This document shows, piece after piece, positions 52,221 through 64,000 of a stretch of DNA of 64,000 nt. The translations under genes and the position numbers were made by a program. Each line of letters begins with the position of its first letter. Position 1 is the stretch's first letter. The DNA is taken from positions 1,860,001 to 1,924,000 of the forward strand of contig NZ_LR738849.1 in the NCBI RefSeq assembly GCF_902702915.1. Direction: 5' to 3'. The notes under the pieces are model-generated. The model saw only the letters and a program-made list of their open reading frames with translations, had not been told where the DNA came from and searched no databases. This DNA is from Desulfovibrio sp. 86. Its GTDB lineage: Bacteria > Desulfobacterota > Desulfovibrionia > Desulfovibrionales > Desulfovibrionaceae.

Positions 52221-55200
52221 ATGCCCCTTGATCAAATTTTACGCCCTGGCCCAGGTCAGACACTTACCCTGCACCCTGCTGCAAGTGATAAAATTACGCT
52301 TGGCTTTCCGACTGAGGGCGTTACGTTGTCACGCGATGATAACGCACTGATTTTTACGTTTGACGACGGTGCGGTCATTCGGCTTGTCGATTTTTATGTC
52401 GATTATCGTGCGGATTTTATCCCCGAGTTTGAAGTTGATGGCAGGCTGATGTCCGGCACGAATTTTTTTACTACTTTCGGGCCAGATCTGCTGCCGGGAG
52501 CAGTGCCTGAACATGAGACGCGTAATGCGCACGTGATTCAGACAGACGGCGACTCCAGCCTGATGGGTGGGTTGGACCACCTGAATGGCCTGGATGCCTC
52601 AGCGCAGGAAAAAGCAACTGCAGCCGATAGCGGCATACAGTTTGATTCCGCTCTGGCTGCTGGCCATGGGCCTGCTGACCATGGTTCGGGTTCGGCAGAC
52701 CCCGAACTACCGCCGGCTGCTGAGGTAGCCTTTGTGCGCGCTGTGCTCTATTCCCCCGGCGATCCTGGCGATTCCGTATCCACTCCCGTGTTTTTTGGCC
52801 GCAATGGCGTGGCCCCTCTAGCCGTTCCCCCCAACGACATTGATTTTGGTGGTTCAGCGCCCGATGCCCGATACGCTGTCACGGTTTTCGTGCCTGAGGG
52901 ATGGTCAGCCTCGTGGGTAGATATCAACGTTGACAGCTCCACTGGCCGGTTGAAATTTTCTCTCACTCCAGATGGCGCGGCTGAACTGCAGCGTCTTGGC
53001 CTGACAAATAAAAACCTGGTGGACCTGGTTCATGTAAAGGTTGCTGACCGGGTTTCAGGCGGCACTTTTGAATACAACGTGGAGCTTGTGGGCACGAGCA
53101 CCCAGAATTTTGATTCCATAGAGTATGACAGACAGAGCGTCGAACATAATGCTGAAAATATAGGTGAATTCCATCAGGGTCAGCATAACAGCGGGGTTTA
53201 TTCCATCATATCTTCCTCGCGGAATGATGAAATCATCCTGAACGATAACGTGGCCGGCGGCAGTTCCATCTACGCCAGCGGTTCGGTTGACCGCGCGCAT
53301 ATGGCTGACGACACCAATACCATCACCCTGAACGCCGGTGTTGTGAACTCCACACTGGGTTCCAGCACGCAGATAATTTCTGCCAACGGCGCGCTTCAGG
53401 TGGCAGGCACTGTTGCTGTGGAGGGCAATATTGGGGAGGACCTCGGAGCCGAGAACGTCATTGCTATGGGCAAGGGCTCGGTCTACGTCCATAACCCCTC
53501 TGGTGATGGCGTAAGCACCACCTATTACGGCAAGAATGACATCAGCGGCGGCGCCGTGGACATCACGTCAACAAGTGGTAGCGGATTGAGCGCGTCTACG
53601 GAAGGGGCCAACAACATCGCCTCTAGCGGTGATGTGACTATTGCCAGCACTAATCGTTCTGAATCTAGCCAAGTCGAAAGCAACGGCATCTATAGCGATG
53701 GCTACGGCAACAACAGCATCAAGGCCGACAGCGGGGATGTGACTGTTACCGCCGCTGCCGCTGGCTCTACCAAGGTTTATAGCTACGGCATCAATGCCGC
53801 TTTCAAATGCACCAACAGCATCAATGCCGACAGCGGGGATGTGACTGTTACCGCCGCTGCCACTGGCACCAGCGATGTCTATAGCGACGGCATATTTAGC
53901 GGTAACTTCGGCAGCACCAGCATCACCACAAAGAGTGGCGATGTGACCGTTACCGGCAATGCGACCGCTACCAGCGATACCCACAGCAAAGGCACCGGCG
54001 TCACCACCGAGGCAGGCGCTAGCAACATTATCACCACTGACAGCGGCTCTGTGACCGTTGCCGGCAAGGGCTCCGTGATTGGCGCGGGTATGGATTGCAG
54101 TGGGGGCGGAAGCACGAGTACTATTACCACCGGCAGCGGCGCCGTGACTGTGTCGGGCGCGGGTACAACCGTTGGCTATGGCATGTATATAACAGATGGC
54201 CACAATACTATCACAACCAACAGCGGCGAGGTGAAAGTGTCAGGCTCCGGTGCTGACAGCGGACACGGTATGTCTGCCGAATTTCGCGGCATAAACACGA
54301 TAGAGTCCACCGCGGGATCGCCCCTCACCGTGACCATCACCGCATCGGCCGATACCGCTGAAAAAGCCGTTGCCATGTGGGCCAGGGGCGAGTACGTCGG
54401 CGGCGTAAACCGCATCATTGGCCATTCCCAGGCGAATGGCACGGACAGAGTCACCCTGACTGCCAACGACGGGCAGGGCATAGCCATGCTGGCCGACTAT
54501 GGCGGAAAGAATATTATCACCACAGGCGCTGGCGATGACAGCGTGACCATCAACGGCGCTGTCAAGAGCATCTTTCCTTTGGTTGGCAGCGACCCCGCCA
54601 ATGAAATCGACCTGGGCGGCGGCAAAAATACCCTTACTCTCAACGGTGCGGTTGAGGCTGGCAGCCTGAAAGTGTCTTCAGAGGCGGGGACCTATACCCT
54701 GGAACTTCAAGCGCCCGACGCTGAAAGCTTTGTCGCCCGCTATGGAGATTGGATCACGGCCATTGGCGCTGATCCGCTCATTGCAGACGGTCTGAGGGGC
54801 ATCAGTTTTGTCGGTCTGAATCCTGCCGACTTGCCTGCTGACTTTATGACAACCTTTGAAGGGGTTTTGGAAGCAATCTACACTAGAGCGGGTGCGGATG
54901 CCATTGTTCCTCCGGAACTTATACACCTCTTGCCAGGGCACGACTCCGACTCCGGTTTTGCGGTTTCGTTTGCGGAAACAGACGCAGAACACCAGACGCA
55001 GGACGCCCAGCATGCCGCAGCCGGGCATGACATCAGCACGCAGGATGTGCAGCATGCCGCAGCCCAGCATGCCGCAGTCGGATATGACGCCAGCACGCAG
55101 GATGTGCAGCATGCCGCAGCCGGATATGACATCAGCACGCAGGATGCGCAGAATGCTACAACCGGGCATGACGCCAGCACGCAGGATGTGCAGCATGCCG

Positions 55201-55847
55201 CAGCCGGATATGGCGCCAGCACGCAGGAGACACCGTCCGCCGCTCATGAGGGTTCGGTTCATATGGCAGGTGATGACAGTCAGGTAGCTGCAGCTGCCGC
55301 CAGCGTGCAGCCGGACACTGCTGCGCTGCATGCGGATATTCTTGTGCCTGACGACATCGCGCAGCCAGACGTTGCCGTTGTCCAACACGTAGTGGAGACG
55401 GCACAGCCGCTTTTCGCCTTTTTAAATGCCCCTGGCGCTGGCGCGCACGTGGACACGTCCGCATATGAGGGGGACGCGCCCCTGCATAACGGCCACCTTG
55501 GCAGTGGAGAAAGCCAAAGCGGCAACGCCGGGGTTCAGGGCGAGATCGTTTTGACCCTTGGGGATGAGAGCCTTGACAGCCTGTTTGCTGGCACTGACCA
55601 GCAGTTGGCGGACAATGGCGAGCACGGCCTCTGGTACGTTGAATCGGGCTCAGACCTGCACGAAGTGGCCCTGACCGATATGAGCGAAATTATTGTTCAG
55701 GGCGGCCCCGGCGAACATGTTTCTGATGCTGGCGTAACTACTGAAGAATACGCACATTTGGAGCAAGAAGTCGTCAGCGCCCCCACTGTGATGGATCCCA
55801 ATCAGGAAACGACGGACAACGCCGCACGGGAAATGACCACATACTAG
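52221..55847 (+). CDS. Giant Gly/Ser/Asn repeat protein 2 (paralogue)
   Basis: 1208 residues from ATG 52221, which has GGGAGGCGACC just upstream; the frame extends back to 51996, but that is the promoter. Domain order matches gene 1: N-terminal module (RPGPGQTLTLHPAASDKITL), VCBS-like part with FEYNVELVGTS, shorter solenoid (about 446-693), TTGAGDDSVTING near 770, a His-rich array (about 922-1006) of QDVQHAAAGYDxST units longer than in gene 1, and the same C-terminus (LTLGDESLDSLFAGTDQQLA). Its end and flanks are nearly identical to gene 3, so the pair arose by recent duplication. Confidence 0.85.
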   Translation: MPLDQILRPGPGQTLTLHPAASDKITLGFPTEGVTLSRDDNALIFTFDDGAVIRLVDFYVDYRADFIPEFEVDGRLMSGTNFFTTFGPDLLPGAVPEHETRNAHVIQTDGDSSLMGGLDHLNGLDASAQEKATAADSGIQFDSALAAGHGPADHGSGSADPELPPAAEVAFVRAVLYSPGDPGDSVSTPVFFGRNGVAPLAVPPNDIDFGGSAPDARYAVTVFVPEGWSASWVDINVDSSTGRLKFSLTPDGAAELQRLGLTNKNLVDLVHVKVADRVSGGTFEYNVELVGTSTQNFDSIEYDRQSVEHNAENIGEFHQGQHNSGVYSIISSSRNDEIILNDNVAGGSSIYASGSVDRAHMADDTNTITLNAGVVNSTLGSSTQIISANGALQVAGTVAVEGNIGEDLGAENVIAMGKGSVYVHNPSGDGVSTTYYGKNDISGGAVDITSTSGSGLSASTEGANNIASSGDVTIASTNRSESSQVESNGIYSDGYGNNSIKADSGDVTVTAAAAGSTKVYSYGINAAFKCTNSINADSGDVTVTAAATGTSDVYSDGIFSGNFGSTSITTKSGDVTVTGNATATSDTHSKGTGVTTEAGASNIITTDSGSVTVAGKGSVIGAGMDCSGGGSTSTITTGSGAVTVSGAGTTVGYGMYITDGHNTITTNSGEVKVSGSGADSGHGMSAEFRGINTIESTAGSPLTVTITASADTAEKAVAMWARGEYVGGVNRIIGHSQANGTDRVTLTANDGQGIAMLADYGGKNIITTGAGDDSVTINGAVKSIFPLVGSDPANEIDLGGGKNTLTLNGAVEAGSLKVSSEAGTYTLELQAPDAESFVARYGDWITAIGADPLIADGLRGISFVGLNPADLPADFMTTFEGVLEAIYTRAGADAIVPPELIHLLPGHDSDSGFAVSFAETDAEHQTQDAQHAAAGHDISTQDVQHAAAQHAAVGYDASTQDVQHAAAGYDISTQDAQNATTGHDASTQDVQHAAAGYGASTQETPSAAHEGSVHMAGDDSQVAAAAASVQPDTAALHADILVPDDIAQPDVAVVQHVVETAQPLFAFLNAPGAGAHVDTSAYEGDAPLHNGHLGSGESQSGNAGVQGEIVLTLGDESLDSLFAGTDQQLADNGEHGLWYVESGSDLHEVALTDMSEIIVQGGPGEHVSDAGVTTEEYAHLEQEVVSAPTVMDPNQETTDNAAREMTTY

Positions 55848-55852
55848 AGCAT

Positions 55853-55916
55853 GTTAACGCTTGAAATGCTCGCGTATGGCAGGCAAAGACTGACTGCTTG
55901 CATTTCAAGCGTTAAC
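55853..55916 (+). terminator. Long hairpin after repeat-protein gene 2
   Basis: Same perfect 16-bp arms as 51662-51725. Confidence 0.6.
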
Positions 55917-56187
55917 GGCCCTGAAAGATGTCGGGTTGCGTCATTCACATAGAATGCCGTATTTATTTGTCTTTTTCTATGAGGGTTAGTGCGGCCGGGT
56001 GTGCGACGGAACGTGCACCCGGGTAATACTACGAAGATAGCAGGGACGAAAAACGTTACGCAAGGCACGATGTATCGCTTTTACTTCCACAAAGTATTAT
56101 ATCAATAAAAACGGATTCTTATCAGCAAGTCTGCGATAAAAAAATAGCCTTGCAAATCAATAAATATATAAAATAGCTTTTTATATA

Positions 56188-56216
56188 TTGACGCAAGCGC
56201 TAACAGGTCTTATTGC
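56188..56216 (+). promoter_or_regulatory. Putative promoter of repeat-protein gene 3
   Basis: TTGACG, 17 bases, TATTGC, identical to the gene 2 promoter. Confidence 0.55.
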
Positions 56217-56411
56217 TAGAGCGATGGGTTCTTCCCAGTACGCGAACAGCAGCTTCCATTTGTTCGCCTCGTCTTTTCAGGGCCGCACCTTTATCAGAGG
56301 GTATGCGGCCGAGGATATCTTCCCCAGAATCAGACAACTTCTCTGTATTCTCCTTTCCTATCCCCCCGCCTTAAGGCGCATCAACGACTCCAAAAATCGT
56401 GGGAGGCGACC

Positions 56412-59400
56412 ATGCCCCTTGATCAAATTTTACGCCCTGGCCCAGGTCAGACACTTACCCTGCACCCTGCTGCAAGTGATAAAATTACGCTTGGCTTTCC
56501 GACTGAGGGCGTTAGGTTGTCACGCGATGATAACGCACTGATTTTTACGTTTGACGACGGTGCGGTCATTCGGCTTGTCGATTTTTATGTCGATTATCGC
56601 GCGGATTTTATCCCCGAGTTTGAAGTTGATGGCAGGCTGATGTCCGGCACGAATTTTTTTACTACTTTCGGGCCAGATCTGATGCCGGGAGCAGTGCCTG
56701 AACATGAGACGCGTAATGCGCACGTGATTCAGACAGACGGCGACTCCAGCCTGATGGGTGGGTTGGACCACCTGAATGGTCTGAATGCCTCAGCGCAGGA
56801 AAAAGCAACTGCAGCGGATAGCGGCATACAGTTTGATTCCGCTCTGGCTGCTGGCCATGGGTCTGCTGGCCATGGGCCTGCTGACCATGGTTCGGGTTCG
56901 GCAGACCCCGAACTACCGCCGGCTGCTGAGGTAGCCTTTGTGCGCGCTGTGCTCTATTCCCCCGGCGATCCTGGCGATTCCGTATCCACTCCCGTGTTTT
57001 TTGGCGGCAATGGCGTGGCCCCTCTAGCCGTTCCCCCCAACGACATTGATTTTGGTGGTTCAGCGCCCGATGCCCGGTACGCTGTCACGGTTTCCGTGCC
57101 TGAGGGGTGGTCAGCCTCGTGGGTAGATATCAACGTTGACAGCTCCACTGGCCGGCTGAAATTTTCTCTCACCCCGGATGGCGCGGCTGAACTGCAGCGT
57201 CTTGGCCTGACAGATAAAAACCTGGTGGACCTGGTTCATGTAAAGGTTGCTGACCGGGTTTCAGGCGGCACTTTTGAATACAACGTGGAGCTTGTGGGCA
57301 CGAGCACCCAGAATTTTGATTCCATAGAGTATGACAGACAGAGCGTCGAACATAATGCTGAAAATATAGGTGAATTCCATCAGGGTCAGCATAACAGCGG
57401 GGTTTATTCCATCATATCTTCCTCGCGGAATGATGAAATCATCCTGAACGATAACGTGGCCGGCGGCAGTTCCATCTACGCCAGCGGTTCGGGTGACCGC
57501 GCGCATATGGCTGACGACACCAATACCATCACCCTGAACGCCGGTGTTGCGAACACCACATCGGGTTCCAGCACGCAGATCATTTCTGCCAACGGCGCGC
57601 TTCAGGTGGCAGGCAGTGTTGCTGTGCAGGGCGGTCGTGTTATACCGGACCTCGAAACCGAGAATGTCATTGCTATGGGCAAGGGCTCGGTCTACATCCA
57701 TAATTCCTCTGGTGATGGCGTAACCAGCTATAACGGCAAGAATGACATCAGCGGCGGCACCGTGGACATCACGGCAATAAGTGGTAACGGGTTGAACGCG
57801 TTTACGTATGGGGCCAACAACATCGCCACTAGCGGTGATGTGACTATTACCAGCACTAATCGTTCTGAATCTAGCGGAGTCAATAGCAGCGCCATCTTTT
57901 GCGGTAGCTACGGCAACAGCAGCATCAAGGCCGACAGTGGGGATGTGAAGCTTACCGCCGCTGCCGCTGGCTCTAACAACGTTTCTAGCTACGGCATCAA
58001 TGGCGATGCCAAATGCAGCAACAGCATCAATACCGACAGCGGGGATGTGACGGTTGCCGCCACTGCCGCTGGCACCAGCGATGTCTATAGCTATGGAATC
58101 TATAGCGGTTTCGAAGGCATAAACAGCATCACCACAAAGAGTGGCGATGTGACCGTAACCGGCAATGCGACCGCTACCAGCGATACCAACAGCCAAGGCA
58201 CCGGCATGGGTATCTTCGAAGTCGGTAACAACACTATCACCACTGACAGCGGCTCTGTGACCGTTACCGGCAAGGGCTCCGTGATTGGCGCGGGTATGTA
58301 TTGCAGGGGGAGCAGCGAAAGCACGAATGCTATTACCACCGGCAGCGGCGCCGTGACTGTGTCTGGCGAGAGTACAACCGTTGGCTATGGCATAATGGGT
58401 GAGCACAACACTATCACAACCGGCAGCGGCGCCGTGACTGTGTCGGGCGCGGGTACAACCGTTGGCTATGGCATAACAGGTATCCACAACACTATCACAA
58501 CCGACAGCGGCGAGGTGAAAGTGTCAGGTTCCGGTGCTGACAGCGGATGCGGCATGTATGCAAATTATGACGACGCAAACACGATAGAGTCCACCATCAA
58601 CTCGCCCCTCACCGTGACCATCACCGCATCGGCCAATACCGCTGAAAAAGCCATTGCCATGTGGGCCGTGTACGAGTACCGCCGCGGCGTAAACCGCATC
58701 ACGGGCCATTCCCAGGCGAATGGCACGGACAGCGTCACCCTGACTGCCAACGACGGGCAGGGCATAGCCATGCTGAGCGACAATGGCGGAAAGAATATTA
58801 TCACCACAGGCGCTGGCAATGACAGCGTGACCATCAACGGCGCTGTCAGAAGCCTCAATCCTTCGGCTGGCAGCGGCCCCGGCAATGAAATCTACCTGGG
58901 CAGCGGCAAGGATACCCTTACTCTCAACGGTGCGGTTGAGGCGGGCAGCCTGAAAGTGACTTCATGGGGGACCTATACCCTGGTACTTCAAGCGCCCGAC
59001 GCTGAAAGCTTTGTCGCCCGCTATGGGGATTGGATCACGGCCATTGGCGCTGATCCGCTCATTGCAGGCGGTCTGAGGGGCATCAGTTTTGTCGGTCTGA
59101 ATCCTGCCGACTTGCCTGCTGACTTTATGACAACCTTTGAAGGGGTTTTGGAAGCAATCCACAGTGCAGAGGGTGGTACCATTGTTCCTCCGGAACTTAT
59201 AAACCTTTTGCCAGGGCACGACTCCGGTTTTGCGGCTTCGTTTGCGGAAACAGACGCAGAACATCATACGCAGGACGCCCAGCATGACGCAGCGGGACAT
59301 GACGCCAGCACGCAGGATGCGCAGCATGCCGCAGTCGGGCATGCCGCAGCCGGATATGACGTCAGCACGCAGGATGCGCAGCATGCCGCAGTCGGGCATA

Positions 59401-60080
59401 CTGACAGCGCGACGCAGGACGCCCAGCATGCCGCAATCGGGCATGACGCCAGCACGCAGGAGACACCGCCCGCCGCTCATGATGGTTCGGTTCATATGGC
59501 AGGCGATGACAGTCAGGTAGCTGTAGCTGCCGCCAGCGCGCAACCGGACACTGCTGCGCTGCATGCGGATATTCTTGTGCCTGACGACATCGCGCAGCCA
59601 GGTTTGGTTGCGGGCGAACATGAGGTGGAACCGGCACAGCCGCTTTTTGCCTTTTTAAATGCCCCTGGCGTAGACGCGCACGTGGACACGTCCGCATATG
59701 AGGGGGACGCGCCCCTGCATAACGGCCACCTTGGCAGTGGAGAAAGCGGAGGAGGCAACGCCGGGGTTCAGGGTGAGATCGCTTTGACCCTTGGGGATGA
59801 GAGCCTTGATAGCCTGTTTGCTGGCACTGACCAGCACCTGGCGGAAAATGGCGAGCACGGCCTCTGGTATGTTGAATCGGGCTCAGACCTGCACGAAGTG
59901 GCCCTGACCGATATGAGCGAAATTATTGTTCAGGGCGGCTCCGGCGAACATGTTTCTGATGCTGTCGTAACTACTGAAGAATACGCACATTTGGAGCAGG
60001 AAGTCGTCAGCGCCCCCACTGTGATGGATTCCAATCAGGAGGCCACGGACAACGCCGTAAGGGAAATGACGACATACTAG
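56412..60080 (+). CDS. Giant Gly/Ser/Asn repeat protein 3 (paralogue)
   Basis: 1222 residues from ATG 56412. The first 400 residues are almost identical to gene 2, apart from a short added GSAGH repeat near residue 150. The solenoid region (about 443-715) has diverged more and contains an extra 27-residue coil made by an exact-period 81-bp duplication (58341/58422). TTGAGNDSVTING near 800 has Asn for the first Asp. The His-rich array (about 949-1020) differs in unit number and order from gene 2. The C-terminus is conserved. Role as for genes 1 and 2: probably exported to the cell surface; unproven. Confidence 0.85.
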   Translation: MPLDQILRPGPGQTLTLHPAASDKITLGFPTEGVRLSRDDNALIFTFDDGAVIRLVDFYVDYRADFIPEFEVDGRLMSGTNFFTTFGPDLMPGAVPEHETRNAHVIQTDGDSSLMGGLDHLNGLNASAQEKATAADSGIQFDSALAAGHGSAGHGPADHGSGSADPELPPAAEVAFVRAVLYSPGDPGDSVSTPVFFGGNGVAPLAVPPNDIDFGGSAPDARYAVTVSVPEGWSASWVDINVDSSTGRLKFSLTPDGAAELQRLGLTDKNLVDLVHVKVADRVSGGTFEYNVELVGTSTQNFDSIEYDRQSVEHNAENIGEFHQGQHNSGVYSIISSSRNDEIILNDNVAGGSSIYASGSGDRAHMADDTNTITLNAGVANTTSGSSTQIISANGALQVAGSVAVQGGRVIPDLETENVIAMGKGSVYIHNSSGDGVTSYNGKNDISGGTVDITAISGNGLNAFTYGANNIATSGDVTITSTNRSESSGVNSSAIFCGSYGNSSIKADSGDVKLTAAAAGSNNVSSYGINGDAKCSNSINTDSGDVTVAATAAGTSDVYSYGIYSGFEGINSITTKSGDVTVTGNATATSDTNSQGTGMGIFEVGNNTITTDSGSVTVTGKGSVIGAGMYCRGSSESTNAITTGSGAVTVSGESTTVGYGIMGEHNTITTGSGAVTVSGAGTTVGYGITGIHNTITTDSGEVKVSGSGADSGCGMYANYDDANTIESTINSPLTVTITASANTAEKAIAMWAVYEYRRGVNRITGHSQANGTDSVTLTANDGQGIAMLSDNGGKNIITTGAGNDSVTINGAVRSLNPSAGSGPGNEIYLGSGKDTLTLNGAVEAGSLKVTSWGTYTLVLQAPDAESFVARYGDWITAIGADPLIAGGLRGISFVGLNPADLPADFMTTFEGVLEAIHSAEGGTIVPPELINLLPGHDSGFAASFAETDAEHHTQDAQHDAAGHDASTQDAQHAAVGHAAAGYDVSTQDAQHAAVGHTDSATQDAQHAAIGHDASTQETPPAAHDGSVHMAGDDSQVAVAAASAQPDTAALHADILVPDDIAQPGLVAGEHEVEPAQPLFAFLNAPGVDAHVDTSAYEGDAPLHNGHLGSGESGGGNAGVQGEIALTLGDESLDSLFAGTDQHLAENGEHGLWYVESGSDLHEVALTDMSEIIVQGGSGEHVSDAVVTTEEYAHLEQEVVSAPTVMDSNQEATDNAVREMTTY

Positions 60081-60242
60081 AGCATGTTACCTTTGAGACT
60101 GTCTATTCCCAAAGTTTAAGGCACGCTGGCTACTGTGCTTGACCGCACAGATAAACTGCGCTGGCACCTTCGTAGCGGACAAAAAGGTTTTGAGAAGGCT
60201 GCCTGGCGTGGCTTCGAAAAAGTTCGCACCATGCAAAAGAAA

Positions 60243-60279
60243 GGCGGCTGGCTCCACTGGAGTCAGCCGCCTGTTTTAT
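60243..60279 (+). terminator. Terminator after repeat-protein gene 3
   Basis: GGCGGCTGGCTCC pairs with GGAGTCAGCCGCC (one mismatch) around ACT and is followed by TGTTTTAT. Just after it, ACGTATCC occurs three times within 30 bases (60292-60322). Confidence 0.8.
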
Positions 60280-60330
60280 CAGGGGCAAGGAACGTATCCA
60301 AAACGTATCCGGAACGTATCCGCAATAAAA

Positions 60331-60361
60331 AAGCGGCCAGCCCTTGTGAGGCTGGCCGCTT
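60331..60361 (-). terminator. Terminator of tRNA-Lys
   Basis: AAGCGGCCAGCC pairs perfectly with GGCTGGCCGCTT around seven bases; on the minus strand it ends in a run of T. Confidence 0.9.
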
Positions 60362-60370
60362 GATTTTTTA

Positions 60371-60446
60371 TGGTGGGTCGTGCGGGGTTCGAACCTGCGA
60401 CTCTCTGCTTAAAAGGCAGATACTCTACCTGCTGAGTTAACGACCC
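60371..60446 (-). tRNA. tRNA-Lys(TTT)
   Basis: 76 nt. Acceptor GGGTCGT pairs with ACGACCC, discriminator A, CCA encoded; D-loop AACTCAGCAGGTAGAG; anticodon stem TCTGC/GCAGA with loop CTTTTAA (anticodon TTT); T-arm with GGTTCGAACC. Confidence 0.97.
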
Positions 60447-60458
60447 ATTGAGACGCGC

Positions 60459-60487
60459 ACTATATATACTGGTGTTTTGGCTGTCAA
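60459..60487 (-). promoter_or_regulatory. Promoter of tRNA-Lys
   Basis: Minus strand TTGACA (perfect), 17-base spacer, TATAGT (5/6), about 12 bases before the tRNA 5' end. Confidence 0.8.
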
Positions 60488-60626
60488 GTGACAAAATGCG
60501 TATCTGACGCGCCGTGACGTTCCAGGCTGTAATCGCTGGCGTTCTCTTGTTATTTAAGTGGGTTACGCATGGCGCTGTGCCCTATTTCGGGCAGCCCCGT
60601 TGTCCATATGGCGCGGATTGCCCTTG

Positions 60627-62387
60627 CTAGCCCTTTTTTTCCTGTTTGGCCCAGGTGTCGCGCAGCGTCGCCGTGCGGTTGAAGACCGGGCGGGCATCCG
60701 TGCTGTCCTTATCCTTGCAGAAATACCCCAGACGCTCGAACTGAACCTTTTCGCCCACGGGCAGGTTCGCCAGGGCAGGCTCCAGCAATGCCTTGACAAC
60801 AGTGAGGGACTGCGGGTTGATATAATCCAGAAACGTCTGGCCTTCGGGGGTTGCATTGGGATTTTCAGCGGCAAAGAGCTGATCGTACAGGCGCACTTCC
60901 GCCGGAATGGCGTGCCGGGCCGACACCCAGTGGATGGTTCCCTTGACCTTGCGGCCATCCGGGCTTTGGCCGCCGCGACTTTCGGGGTCGTACACGCAGC
61001 GCAGTTCGATCACGTTGCCTGCCTCGTCCAGAATGGCCTCGCGGCAGGTGATGAAATAGGCATAGCGCAGACGTACCTCCGCGCCGGGGGCCAGGCGGTG
61101 GTATTTCTTGGGCGGCTCCATGCGGAAATCGTCCCGCTCGATGTACAGTTCGCGCGCAAAGGGAACCTTGCGGCTGCCGTAGCTCTCATCCTCGGGGTGG
61201 TAGGGCATGTCGAACTCTTCCACCTGTCCTTCGGGGTAGTTTTCAATGACCACCTTGACGGGATCAAGCACGGCCATGACGCGCGCCGCATGGGCGTTGA
61301 GGTGCTCACGCACGCAGAATTCCAGCATGGAGTATTCCACCGTGGAGTCGGCCCGCGCCATGCCAATGCGGGAGCAGAACTCGCGCAGGGCTTCGGCAGG
61401 CACGCCCCGGCGGCGCAGGCCGCAGAGCGTGGGCATGCGGGGGTCGTCCCAGCCGCGAACGTGTCCTTCCTTCACAAGCTGGATGAGCTTGCGCTTGGAA
61501 AGGACGGTGTAGGTGACATTGAGACGGGCGAATTCAATCTGCTGCGGGCGGTATGCGCCAAGCGTTTCCAGCACCCAGTCGTACAGTTCGCGGTTGTTGA
61601 TGAATTCCAGGGTGCAGAGCGAATGGGTGATGCCCTCGATGGAGTCCGACAGACAGTGCGTGTAGTCGTACATGGGGTAGATGCACCACGTGTCGCCCGT
61701 GCGGTGGTGCGCGGCATGGCGGATGCGGTACAGCGTGGGATCGCGCATGACAAGGTTGGGCGAAGCCATGTCAATCTTGGCGCGCAGCACGCGCTCGCCA
61801 TCGGCAAATTCGCCCGCGCGCATACGGCGGAACAGGTCGAGGTTTTCTTCCGCGCTGCGGTTGCGCCAGGGACTTTCGCGCCCCGGCTCGGTCAGCGTGC
61901 CCCGGTACTCACGGATTTCTTCCGCAGAAAGATCGTCCACATAGGCCTTGCCCATTGTGATGAGCTGTTCGGCGTATGCGTAGAGTTGCTCAAAATAATT
62001 GGAGGCGTAAAATTCCCTGTCCTGCCAGTCGCCGCCAAGCCAGCGCACGTCCTCGCGAATGGAATCGACGTATTCCTGCTCTTCTTTCGTGGGATTGGTG
62101 TCGTCAAAGCGCAGGTTGCACAATCCGTTGAACTCTTTGGCAACGCCGAAGTTCAGACAGATGGACTTGGCGTGCCCAAGGTGCAGATAGCCATTGGGCT
62201 CGGGAGGAAAGCGCGTATGAACCCTGCCGTTATAGCGGCCTGTGGCATTGTCTTCAATGATGCGGGCACGAATGAAGTCCACGCCGGGCTTGTTGGCGGT
62301 GTCCGCCGCCGCGTCCGTGGCATTGGTGCAGTGGGGGTCGGCGGTGGGGGTCATGTTTTTTGTCTCGGGGGCCATGATGCGCTCCAT
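60627..62387 (-). CDS. glnS: Glutaminyl-tRNA synthetase
   Basis: 586 residues. Class I signatures are [16 protein letters not shown] (HIGH) and [11 protein letters not shown] (KMSKS-like). [18 protein letters not shown] and [20 protein letters not shown] are GlnRS blocks, and a C-terminal beta-barrel anticodon-binding half follows. About 30 residues of Ala/Thr-rich sequence precede the core compared with E. coli. Two starts compete: ATG 62387 (AGGAAG) and ATG 62375 (GGAGCG). Its presence means tRNA-Gln is charged directly. Confidence 0.97.
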
Positions 62388-62414
62388 TACTTCCTGGCGA
62401 TAATGTAAACTGTA

Positions 62415-62443
62415 AAGCTACGCCAAGCCGGGGCAGGGGTCAA
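62415..62443 (-). promoter_or_regulatory. Putative promoter of glnS
   Basis: Minus strand TTGACC, 17-base spacer, TAGCTT. The same TAGCTT is found 17 bases after a perfect TTGACA before tRNA-Ser. Confidence 0.45.
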
Positions 62444-62449
62444 TCGTGC

Positions 62450-62960
62450 GTATGCGGGCAGCCGGGGCGTCCGGGGGGCGTCCGGGGCGGTCGTCACGAA
62501 GCGGCTTGGCTGTATTGCACAAATTTGGCTGTATTGCACAAATGTTGGTTTCTGTTGCAGCCGTCGTGGCGGTCGAGGTGGCGTGGCCCACTGCAGGGAT
62601 GCCGTTTTTTGTTGATGCAGGCAGCCGGGGCGTTACACGGCGGTTGCAGTTTGCCTTTCTGTGATGCTGGTTTGTGCTGGTGGCAGCCGGGGCGTTACAC
62701 GGCGGTTGCAGCTTGCTTCGCAGGGATGCTGTTTTCTGTTGATGCAGGCAGCCGGGGCTACACGAGGGCCGCAGCCTGCTTTGCAGGGATGGGCGTGGCC
62801 CACTGCAGGGATACTGATTTGTGCTGTTGGCAGCCGGGGCGTTGCACGGCGGCCGTAGGCAGGTTTGCGAGGATAGATTTTCTGTTGCTGACCGCCGTGA
62901 CTGTGGCAATCACGAAAGGCCGGCACCTGCTTCGCAAAGATGCCGTTTTCTGCTGTTGGG
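62450..62960. repeat. Imperfect tandem repeats, about 62-82 bp period
   Basis: GCAGCCGGGGCGTTACACGG and variants start at 62621, 62683, 62748 and 62830, with a partial one at 62455; each is followed by CTTGCTTCGCAGGGATGCTG-like sequence. GTGGCCCACTGCAGGGAT occurs twice (62584 and about 62793). The frames over it translate the repeat and show no protein family; I consider it non-coding. Confidence 0.75.
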
Positions 62961-63045
62961 TGCTGTGTTTCTGGCAACCTCGACAGTGCAGCATGACAAG
63001 GCGTTGCGACAGGCCGTGAGCAAAAGAACAAAAATCTCCGCACGC

Positions 63046-63074
63046 TTGACAGCCATGCCAACCTAAGCTAGCTT
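63046..63074 (+). promoter_or_regulatory. Promoter of tRNA-Ser
   Basis: TTGACA (perfect), 17-base spacer, TAGCTT (3/6), 36 bases before the tRNA. TTGACAGCCA is shared with the tRNA-Lys promoter. Confidence 0.6.
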
Positions 63075-63110
63075 GCACTTCTGCATTCGGGGCGCACTGC
63101 GCCCAAAAGC

Positions 63111-63205
63111 GGAGAGGTGTCCGAGTCGGCCGAAGGAGCTCGCCTGCTAAGCGAGTATACGGGCTTAAACCTGTATCGAGAGTTCAAATCTCTCCCTCTC
63201 CGCCA
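63111..63205 (+). tRNA. tRNA-Ser(GCT)
   Basis: 95 nt with the long variable arm of class II tRNAs. Acceptor GGAGAGG/CCTCTCC, discriminator G, CCA encoded; anticodon stem CTCGC/GCGAG with loop CTGCTAA (anticodon GCT); T-arm with GTTCAAATC. Confidence 0.97.
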
Positions 63206-63776
63206 CATAGCAAGTAAAACCGCCAAGTTATCTGATGATAACTTGGCGGTTTTTGCGTTCAAAAAAGGTATGTTTTTAGCGAGTACACGGCCGTATCCAT
63301 ACCGTTGTCCATACTTTGTATTAATGTTTTACGAAAAAAACAGCGCTTGCAGAAGGTATTCTTTGTGGGCGAGGCGGTGCGTTTGAAAAGGTATTTGGGT
63401 TGCAATGAGGTTGTTCATTATTTATTGCACGTTCACAAAAACGCGATGGGCCTTCAATCTAGCCTTGATTGGTCTTGGCCGAGTTGTTGTAGTAATTGGC
63501 TTAGCAATGATGACGGAGAAGTTAGCTGCCCTTAGCAATACTCCATTTTTAGGGGGTGAGGCACAATTGGCGGAATGGGGATAATGACGGCTATGCCGAA
63601 TCGGAATAGGCCGCAGCAACGCTAATAAAGAGAGGCTTCAACTCTTTTTTATTAATCATCAAATATTGTATAAACGTCCTTACTATATTATAAGAATTCA
63701 CAGATTGATTAGAAATTATACTCTTGGACAATTTTCAGAATTAATTTAGCACGATAACCGAAGTGAGCCTTCTATA
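63206..63776. other. Low-GC gene-free stretch after tRNA-Ser
   Basis: After the terminator, base composition falls clearly below the rest of the window. No frame shows a motif. This looks like the left part of an island inserted near the tRNA gene; a repeat of the tRNA 3' end was not seen inside the window. Confidence 0.55.
63218..63256 (+). terminator. Terminator of tRNA-Ser
   Basis: AACCGCCAAGTTATC pairs perfectly with GATAACTTGGCGGTT around TGAT, followed by TTT. Confidence 0.92.
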
Positions 63777-64000
63777 TGCGAATAGAACTGCCGCCAAGAC
63801 CTTCTCCAGAACAGTTAATTATATTGCAAAGACCATTGCGTCCTGTAGAAATTATTAAAGGGGCAGCAGGTAGCGGAAAAACGTTAACAGCTCTTTATAA
63901 ACTAGTTTTTGCGACAGGATACATGGCTACCTATAAAAGTTGTATCAATATTCTCATTCTATCATATAATAGAACGCTGAAAGGATACATTGAGGCGATG
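63777..64000 (+). CDS. SF1 (UvrD/Rep-like) helicase or related ATPase, N-terminal fragment
   Basis: 74 residues are visible before the right edge. The start MRIELPPRPSPEQLIILQ is followed by the Walker A motif KGAAGSGKTLTALYKL and then CINILILSYNRTLKGYIEAM. The Q-motif-like PSPEQ, GAAGSGKT and the ILSYNRTL strand are the order of motifs Q, I and Ia in superfamily 1 helicases. Codon use is AT-rich, unlike the genes to the left. No clear ribosome site; ATG 63777 is chosen because translation upstream is not continuous. Such genes after a tRNA often belong to mobile or defence islands, which is inference. Confidence 0.75.

Follow-up and report, generated by a model that had tools for sequence, protein, structure and literature searches.

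A helicase–DarT–ARH operon beside a tRNA-Ser gene in Desulfovibrio sp. 86: a predicted DarTG-like module with an ARH-fold partner

The segment beyond tRNA-Ser

The window analyzed here is a stretch of 64,000 nucleotides, bases 1860001–1924000 of the one-contig genome (C1; 3,464,070 bases) of Desulfovibrio sp. 86, and the sequence was read on to the right of it. Near its right end, ARAGORN and the Rfam tRNA model place a tRNA-Ser gene (anticodon GCT) on the plus strand at window positions 63111–63205, followed by a 570-base stretch of low GC content (63206–63775) in which reading frames and Rfam reveal no convincing gene. The first long reading frame past the tRNA opens with an ATG at 63776 and includes the early sequence IKGAAGSGKT. 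It encodes, on the plus strand, an SF1 (UvrD-like) helicase of 465 residues (Pfam UvrD_C, E 2.8e-18; UvrD-helicase, E 2.1e-7), which occupies window positions 63776–64000 and runs past the window end (C1 1923776–1925173; 8777–10174 of the fetched sequence L009, whose base x is window base x + 54999). An earlier note on this DNA had described this arrangement of about 570 gene-free bases followed by a Walker A protein with a UvrD-like start, and had proposed reading rightward for further genes. That reader saw the helicase only; beyond the window, genes for DarT and its hydrolase were found.

The DarT gene (210 residues; L009 10171–10803) was recognized by its reading frame and Pfam DarT, and the gene for the hydrolase, hereafter ARH (about 557 residues; L009 10800–12473), by Pfam ADP_ribosyl_GH; the start of the latter was set by homology, the frame being open also from 10752. 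Helicase, DarT, and ARH genes all lie on the plus strand and, with the homology-based ARH start, overlap by 4 bases at each of the two junctions. They are followed by an IS3-family transposase pair (L009 12869–14103, plus strand; Pfam transposase and integrase-core domains) and then by the broken end of a tyrosine recombinase on the minus strand (about L009 14166–14420; tblastn E 2e-12 over two frames).

The sharp drop in composition that the earlier note placed after tRNA-Ser is readily seen, with GC falling from about 0.58 to 0.40 past the tRNA. Per 500 bases, GC is 0.51–0.64 over window positions 55000–63249, with the exception of 0.45–0.46 around 55750–56499; it is 0.48 at 63000–63499 and thereafter 0.39 and 0.38 (0.38–0.39 over the final 750 window bases). 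In 1-kb steps along the genome, it stays at 0.40–0.46 over C1 1923000–1927999 and is 0.53–0.56 in the following 5 kb. The earlier note had also envisaged an island in which an SF1 helicase accompanies defense genes, and the cargo does look defense-like, but the low-GC part is short, just ~4.7 kb, and ends about C1 1928000. Rfam detected the tRNA and no further element in the surrounding 7.2 kb, and promoter-like and terminator-like signals are no more frequent than chance (11 versus 9.3 and 2 versus 4.3 expected, respectively). A hairpin directly 3' of the tRNA appears as a self-inverted match and is absent from the terminator-scan list. Upstream of the tRNA, window positions 62588–62875 hold several related repeats of ~40–70 bases, visible as self-matches of the flank.

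For a comparison within the genus, 31 genomes were searched, the own genome included; the left-flank query matched somewhere in all 31 and the right-flank query in 7. The best match, G311, has both flanks on one contig (91–94% identity for the left flank, 99% for the right) and ~0.78 kb of other DNA between them, versus ~5.9 kb here. Identity extends through the whole tRNA, which ARAGORN calls as tRNA-Ser(GCT) in G311 too, and divergence begins at the very next base; the three genes are absent from this locus in G311, the right side rejoins at 99% identity, and the same recombinase relic is kept. The segment is accessory DNA with its boundary at the 3' end of the tRNA. That it is a conserved core region, the alternative named in the earlier note, is ruled out by the otherwise matching G311 locus without the trio, and the DarT query matched the own genome only among 297 genomes of the phylum. 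The difference may reflect gain here or loss in G311.

The view of the tRNA as an integration site holds in part. Accessory DNA that starts at the last base of the tRNA, as judged against G311, and the broken recombinase end speak for it; against it, the direct repeat of the tRNA-Ser 3' end that had been anticipated did not turn up, as the 26-base 3' end has a single copy in 20 kb (up to 3 mismatches allowed) and a repeat search over the 7 kb from the tRNA onward gave no long direct repeat, and the segment holds no intact integrase, only the C-terminal relic on its right side. tRNA-Ser genes do host mobile elements in this genus, as is evident from integrases near tRNA-Ser(CGA) genes elsewhere in the own genome and in genome G307, to which the relic is related. 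Besides a full-length integrase of the relic's family, the 11-kb stretch after tRNA-Ser(CGA) in the own genome (L066:3686–14845; C1 2225685–2236844) encodes XamI restriction, Eco57I-like methylase, and TIR–TPR proteins, and on its far side part of the tRNA end recurs together with downstream sequence. In G307 (L100:2499–5886), tRNA-Ser(CGA) is followed by an integrase of the same family and a 516-residue gene that is P-loop NTPase-like by eye.

The three encoded proteins

DarT matches Pfam PF14487 with 42.4 bits against a cut-off of 22.5, which places it in the DarT superfamily. A profile search of the PDB with the DarT alignment (A4) gave a single distinct sequence, 8baq (E 2.6e-16), which is the DarT1 of E. 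coli C7; DarT2 entries did not appear among matches up to E 1. Structure models were those of a relative from Alcaligenes pakistanensis (L022) and not of the window's own proteins. The DarT model (pLDDT 93) matches DarT1 with a Z-score of 25.9 and an rmsd of 1.7 over 192 residues, versus Z-scores of 16.5–17.9 for DarT2 entries and at most 7.4 for the listed protein-modifying transferases. Passages of PMC11543638 state that DarT1 needs E152 (catalytic), N104 (the guanine-holding residue), R52, M71, and D54, and that the base-contact position of DarT2 is a histidine, H119. Among 43 aligned sequences (the own included, some being near-duplicates), the columns aligned to N104 and E152 hold Asn in 43/43 and Glu in 43/43, so that the aligned base-contact column has Asn and not the His of the thymine-specific DarT2 throughout. 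The R52 column is Arg in 42/43, a pairing supported by the pairwise alignment but displaced in the profile alignment; the M71 column holds Phe, Tyr, Leu, or Met, and the D54 column Asp in 31/43. The PADLOC DarT model recognizes 42/43 of these proteins at E 0.01, the window's own DarT scoring 0.011. On profile and modeled fold, we assign the protein to the DarT1 type, nearer DarT1 than DarT2, and, since this match is joined by the aligned active-site residues, we predict with moderate confidence that its target is guanine.

ARH matches PF03747 (ADP_ribosyl_GH) with E 3.9e-30. This domain is the sole Pfam match at E 0.01 in 43/43 of the DarT partners, with no NADAR and no macrodomain, and this antitoxin class rules out DarTG1 or DarTG2 proper. 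Residues E24, S67-D68-D69, and D324/D326 are kept in 43/43, and the SDD and DTD motifs, which we take to be the binuclear metal residues, are invariant. The ARH model of L022 (pLDDT 89) gives Z-scores of 35 to ARH3 and MJ1187 and of 30–31 to DraG (2woc) and the hydrolases of two ART–ARH toxin/immunity pairs (6drh, 8za7), and domain match, residues, and the modeled fold of the relative place the protein in the ARH/DraG family. In L022 it carries an extension (residues 390–562) in which a beta part, a disordered region, and a terminal helical part succeed one another, the structure comparisons barely covering the middle of this C-terminal part. No PADLOC model matched any of the 43 ARH sequences, and a viral-model search matched other ADP-ribosylglycohydrolases.

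In the helicase, Walker A, DExQ, and most of the other motif residues checked are kept in 42/42 sequences, the own included, while position 436 is Arg in 37 and Lys in 5, with variable flanking positions. The helicase alignment (A6) omits L029 (misplaced start) and L045 (in-frame stop), as the ARH alignment (A5) omits L061 (frameshift). The best PADLOC matches of the helicase are NERD+UvrD (E 3.2e-23) and GajB (E 8.5e-21), and Pfam finds no nuclease domain in it. It shares an SF1 UvrD-like helicase with Gabija GajB and the NERD/UvrD defense helicases but differs from them in having no GajA-type partner and no Pfam nuclease domain; where Gabija has the GajA nuclease beside GajB, the neighbors here are DarT and ARH, which also rules out a lone Gabija/Nhi-like gene.

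Distribution of the trio and of DarT–ARH pairs

A scan of 84,980 genomes, one per species, with the DarT alignment yielded at least 37 loci, a lower bound because the scan relied on two peptide patterns. The order helicase–DarT–ARH on one strand is found in 36/37, the contig of the 37th (L058) ending inside DarT; in one of the 36 (L045), the helicase has an in-frame stop. Record titles name alpha-, beta-, and gammaproteobacteria, Desulfovibrio-type and Desulfuromonas-type bacteria, an acidobacterium, actinobacteria, and a Cryomorphaceae MAG. L016, a near-copy of L017, and L062, L064, and L065, which lie on the same contigs as L059–L061, were left out; L018–L021 are distant DarTs with neither partner present. 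Over 40 loci, pairwise distances correlate closely between DarT and ARH (r 0.92), DarT and helicase (0.91), and ARH and helicase (0.93), values that 0/999 permutations reached in each case, and dN/dS is 0.05–0.33 in 13 gene comparisons, which are not all independent (nine share one E. coli sequence). The helicase–DarT–ARH trio is a unit.

The trio also occurs on mobile DNA. Nine plasmid records matched; the best four (37–42% identity), two of which (Cereibacter) hold nearly the same stretch, carry the trio, and it is absent from the four weaker ones of the 8 inspected. Three contigs of a viral collection have it as well, the ARH frame being broken in one of them, and a fourth is cut by the contig end at ARH. 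When the viral collection was searched starting from the helicase, 3 of 17 loci, with 36–37% identity, were these known trios, and the next by E-value had 23%. Phage records gave no matches to this ARH or to the Kluyvera helicase. A search at near identity, with the Kluyvera copy as query, detected the trio in 21/5,426 E. coli genomes, always on the chromosome and with the full query covered at 93.8% identity. The five of the 21 that were inspected share an island located after pth-ychF that also contains an integrase, a P-loop NTPase gene, and remnants of IS elements, which looks like one acquisition; the three genes stand among broken IS elements and are themselves annotated without defects. 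The RADAR genes rdrA and rdrB share this island in the one strain examined in more detail.

Among 395 genomes of the phylum, DarT was found in 43 (E 1e-8) and a relative of this ARH in 5 (E 1e-20). ARH adjoins DarT in 4/5 of the latter (G000, G098, G108, and G122), the exception being G402; the DarT of G108 is in two pieces in different frames. The helicase is also present in two of these four, G000 and G098. DarT–ARH pairs therefore extend beyond the trio, with the helicase accompanying a subset of them. By comparison, 30 DarT loci fetched in the phylum showed neither an ARH nor a helicase of this type within the flanks examined (at most about 1.5 kb each), and the neighbors of ordinary DarTs gave a Macro match in 4/4 tested. 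The set in G098 (L180:5492–9382) is a very distant helicase–DarT–ARH set whose ARH has a C-terminal glyoxalase-like domain. The helicase-less pair in G122 (L179:2–8919) follows genes of HsdR-M-S type, with matches to EcoEI_R_C/ResIII, HsdM, and type I specificity domains.

At most a weak enrichment of defense genes, judged against an imperfect control, surrounds the trio. At E 1e-20, PADLOC matched 29 models in 118 flanking ORFs (of 186, with 16 loci skipped and shorter and very long ORFs left out) versus 7 in 118 control ORFs (of 144) from four genomes of the own family. Twelve of the 25 models listed for the flanks are DpdF, each matched by one protein; counted by name, there are 10 among those listed versus 5 in the control.

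A predicted DNA-ADP-ribosylation module and its alternatives

We consider it somewhat more probable than its converse (about 0.55) that the segment is a horizontally acquired operon at tRNA-Ser encoding a DarTG-like toxin–antitoxin or defense module equipped with a helicase of its own and an ARH as eraser. As a targeting or activating arm, the helicase would load onto DNA that invades or replicates, exposing the single-stranded substrate of DarT; DarT would then put ADP-ribose on guanine bases of the single-stranded DNA, and the tagged DNA would block replication of the invader or, if unchecked, of the host. The ARH-fold antitoxin would remove the tag, possibly also binding DarT, and so protect the host. 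Gene order, overlaps, correlated distances, dN/dS, aligned active-site residues, the modeled fold of relatives, the PADLOC DarT matches, the type I restriction setting of G122, and the RADAR genes in one E. coli island favor this reading; the D54 and M71 columns, the alignment-dependent R52 pairing, the weak neighborhood enrichment, and the RNA panel discussed below speak against it. More tentatively, and with rather less than even confidence, we propose that the trio represents a third kind of DarT system, in which an ARH-fold eraser of guanine DNA ADP-ribosylation is combined with an SF1 helicase that feeds or targets a DarT1-type writer, making it an ATP-driven DNA-ADP-ribosylation immunity present in several bacterial phyla.

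Compared with DarTG1 (DarT1–NADAR), the operon shares a transferase of DarT1 type by profile and fold, with invariant equivalents of N104 and E152, but the partner has an ARH fold instead of NADAR in 43/43 and an SF1 helicase gene lies 5' of DarT. With DarTG2 (DarT2–macrodomain DarG), it has in common the DarT fold and the two-enzyme logic of writer and eraser, and the related pair in G122 is preceded by type I restriction genes, a position that has been described for DarTG (passages of PMC5179494 and PMC12255303); it differs in lacking a macrodomain and in a DarT nearer to DarT1. Passages of PMC11833690 give macrodomain or NADAR proteins as the antitoxins that reverse DNA ADP-ribosylation, and macrodomain or NADAR proteins were the only antitoxins for DarT in the open-licence literature searched. 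In the same passages, NADARs alone reversed ADP-ribosylation of guanosine in RNA, in a panel whose members included human ARHs and one ARH-like protein of bacterial origin; since NADARs are there the only hydrolase family with this activity, an ARH that erases guanine-ADP-ribose would be the first of its kind. Among the matches listed from open-licence full texts, to which the search was confined, no helicase–DarT–ARH system was found. A passage of PMC9503650 names DarT–Macro/NADAR pairs, and a figure legend on CRISPR-linked loci in PMC10910872 has DarT, DarG, and UvrD among many abbreviations and does not describe the trio. DarTs in operons with different hydrolases are mentioned in a passage of PMC11543638 and credited there to de Souza and Aravind 2012, where DarT–ARH–helicase neighborhoods may possibly have been sighted earlier.

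The helicase could instead belong to the erasing or repair side, unwinding or remodeling ADP-ribosylated DNA to let ARH strip or repair the lesions, with DarT and ARH as toxin and antitoxin and the helicase as a safeguard. UvrD acts in nucleotide excision repair. The pair in G122, from which it follows that the helicase is not essential to every DarT–ARH pair, is consistent with such a role, as is the title of PMC7003065, which names RecF recombination and nucleotide excision repair as reversing DNA ADP-ribosylation. We nevertheless regard a repair role as unlikely: the helicase is the first gene of this operon and overlaps DarT, not ARH, and its presence in 36/36 uncut close loci (broken in L045) is higher than expected of a dispensable aid. 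Somewhat less likely again is a selfish addiction module that stabilizes plasmids and islands with no direct role against phages. Its occurrence on 4 plasmid records and on islands would suit such a module, as would the E. coli copy, whose three genes are annotated without defects amid broken IS elements in the five islands inspected; on the other hand, addiction would by our reasoning not need a dedicated ATP-driven helicase, and in one E. coli strain the trio shares its island with RADAR.

A protein-directed regulatory pair is improbable. The transferases of ART–ARH toxin/immunity pairs and of DraT–DraG act on proteins, and like them the operon combines an ADP-ribosyltransferase with an ARH-fold hydrolase, which would here reverse the modification of a host or phage protein. 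The solved ARH-fold partners of such transferases (6drh, 8za7, 2woc) are those that match at Z-scores of 30–31, and an ART–ARG pair has been predicted in Aeromonas phages (a passage of PMC9503650). However, the transferase here is DarT-like, the hydrolase is longer, and a helicase is added; moreover, the fold of the relative's transferase is far closer to DarT1 and DarT2 than to the protein-modifying transferases, and the residue aligned to the base-contacting Asn of DarT1 is invariant.

If the operon is a DarTG-like module of the kind we favor, its conserved writer–eraser pair carries two predictions, one chemical, that an ARH acts on base-linked ADP-ribose, and one biological, that a helicase works together with a transferase requiring single-stranded DNA. 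As E. coli and other Enterobacterales have relatives of the trio, both are quickly testable in laboratory strains. In the five E. coli islands inspected, the trio is followed on the opposite strand by the 3.9-kb P-loop NTPase gene (L102:19081–22983), which is of YobI type in two annotations, and in a Salmonella plasmid copy, a gene of the same size, annotated as hypothetical, takes its place.
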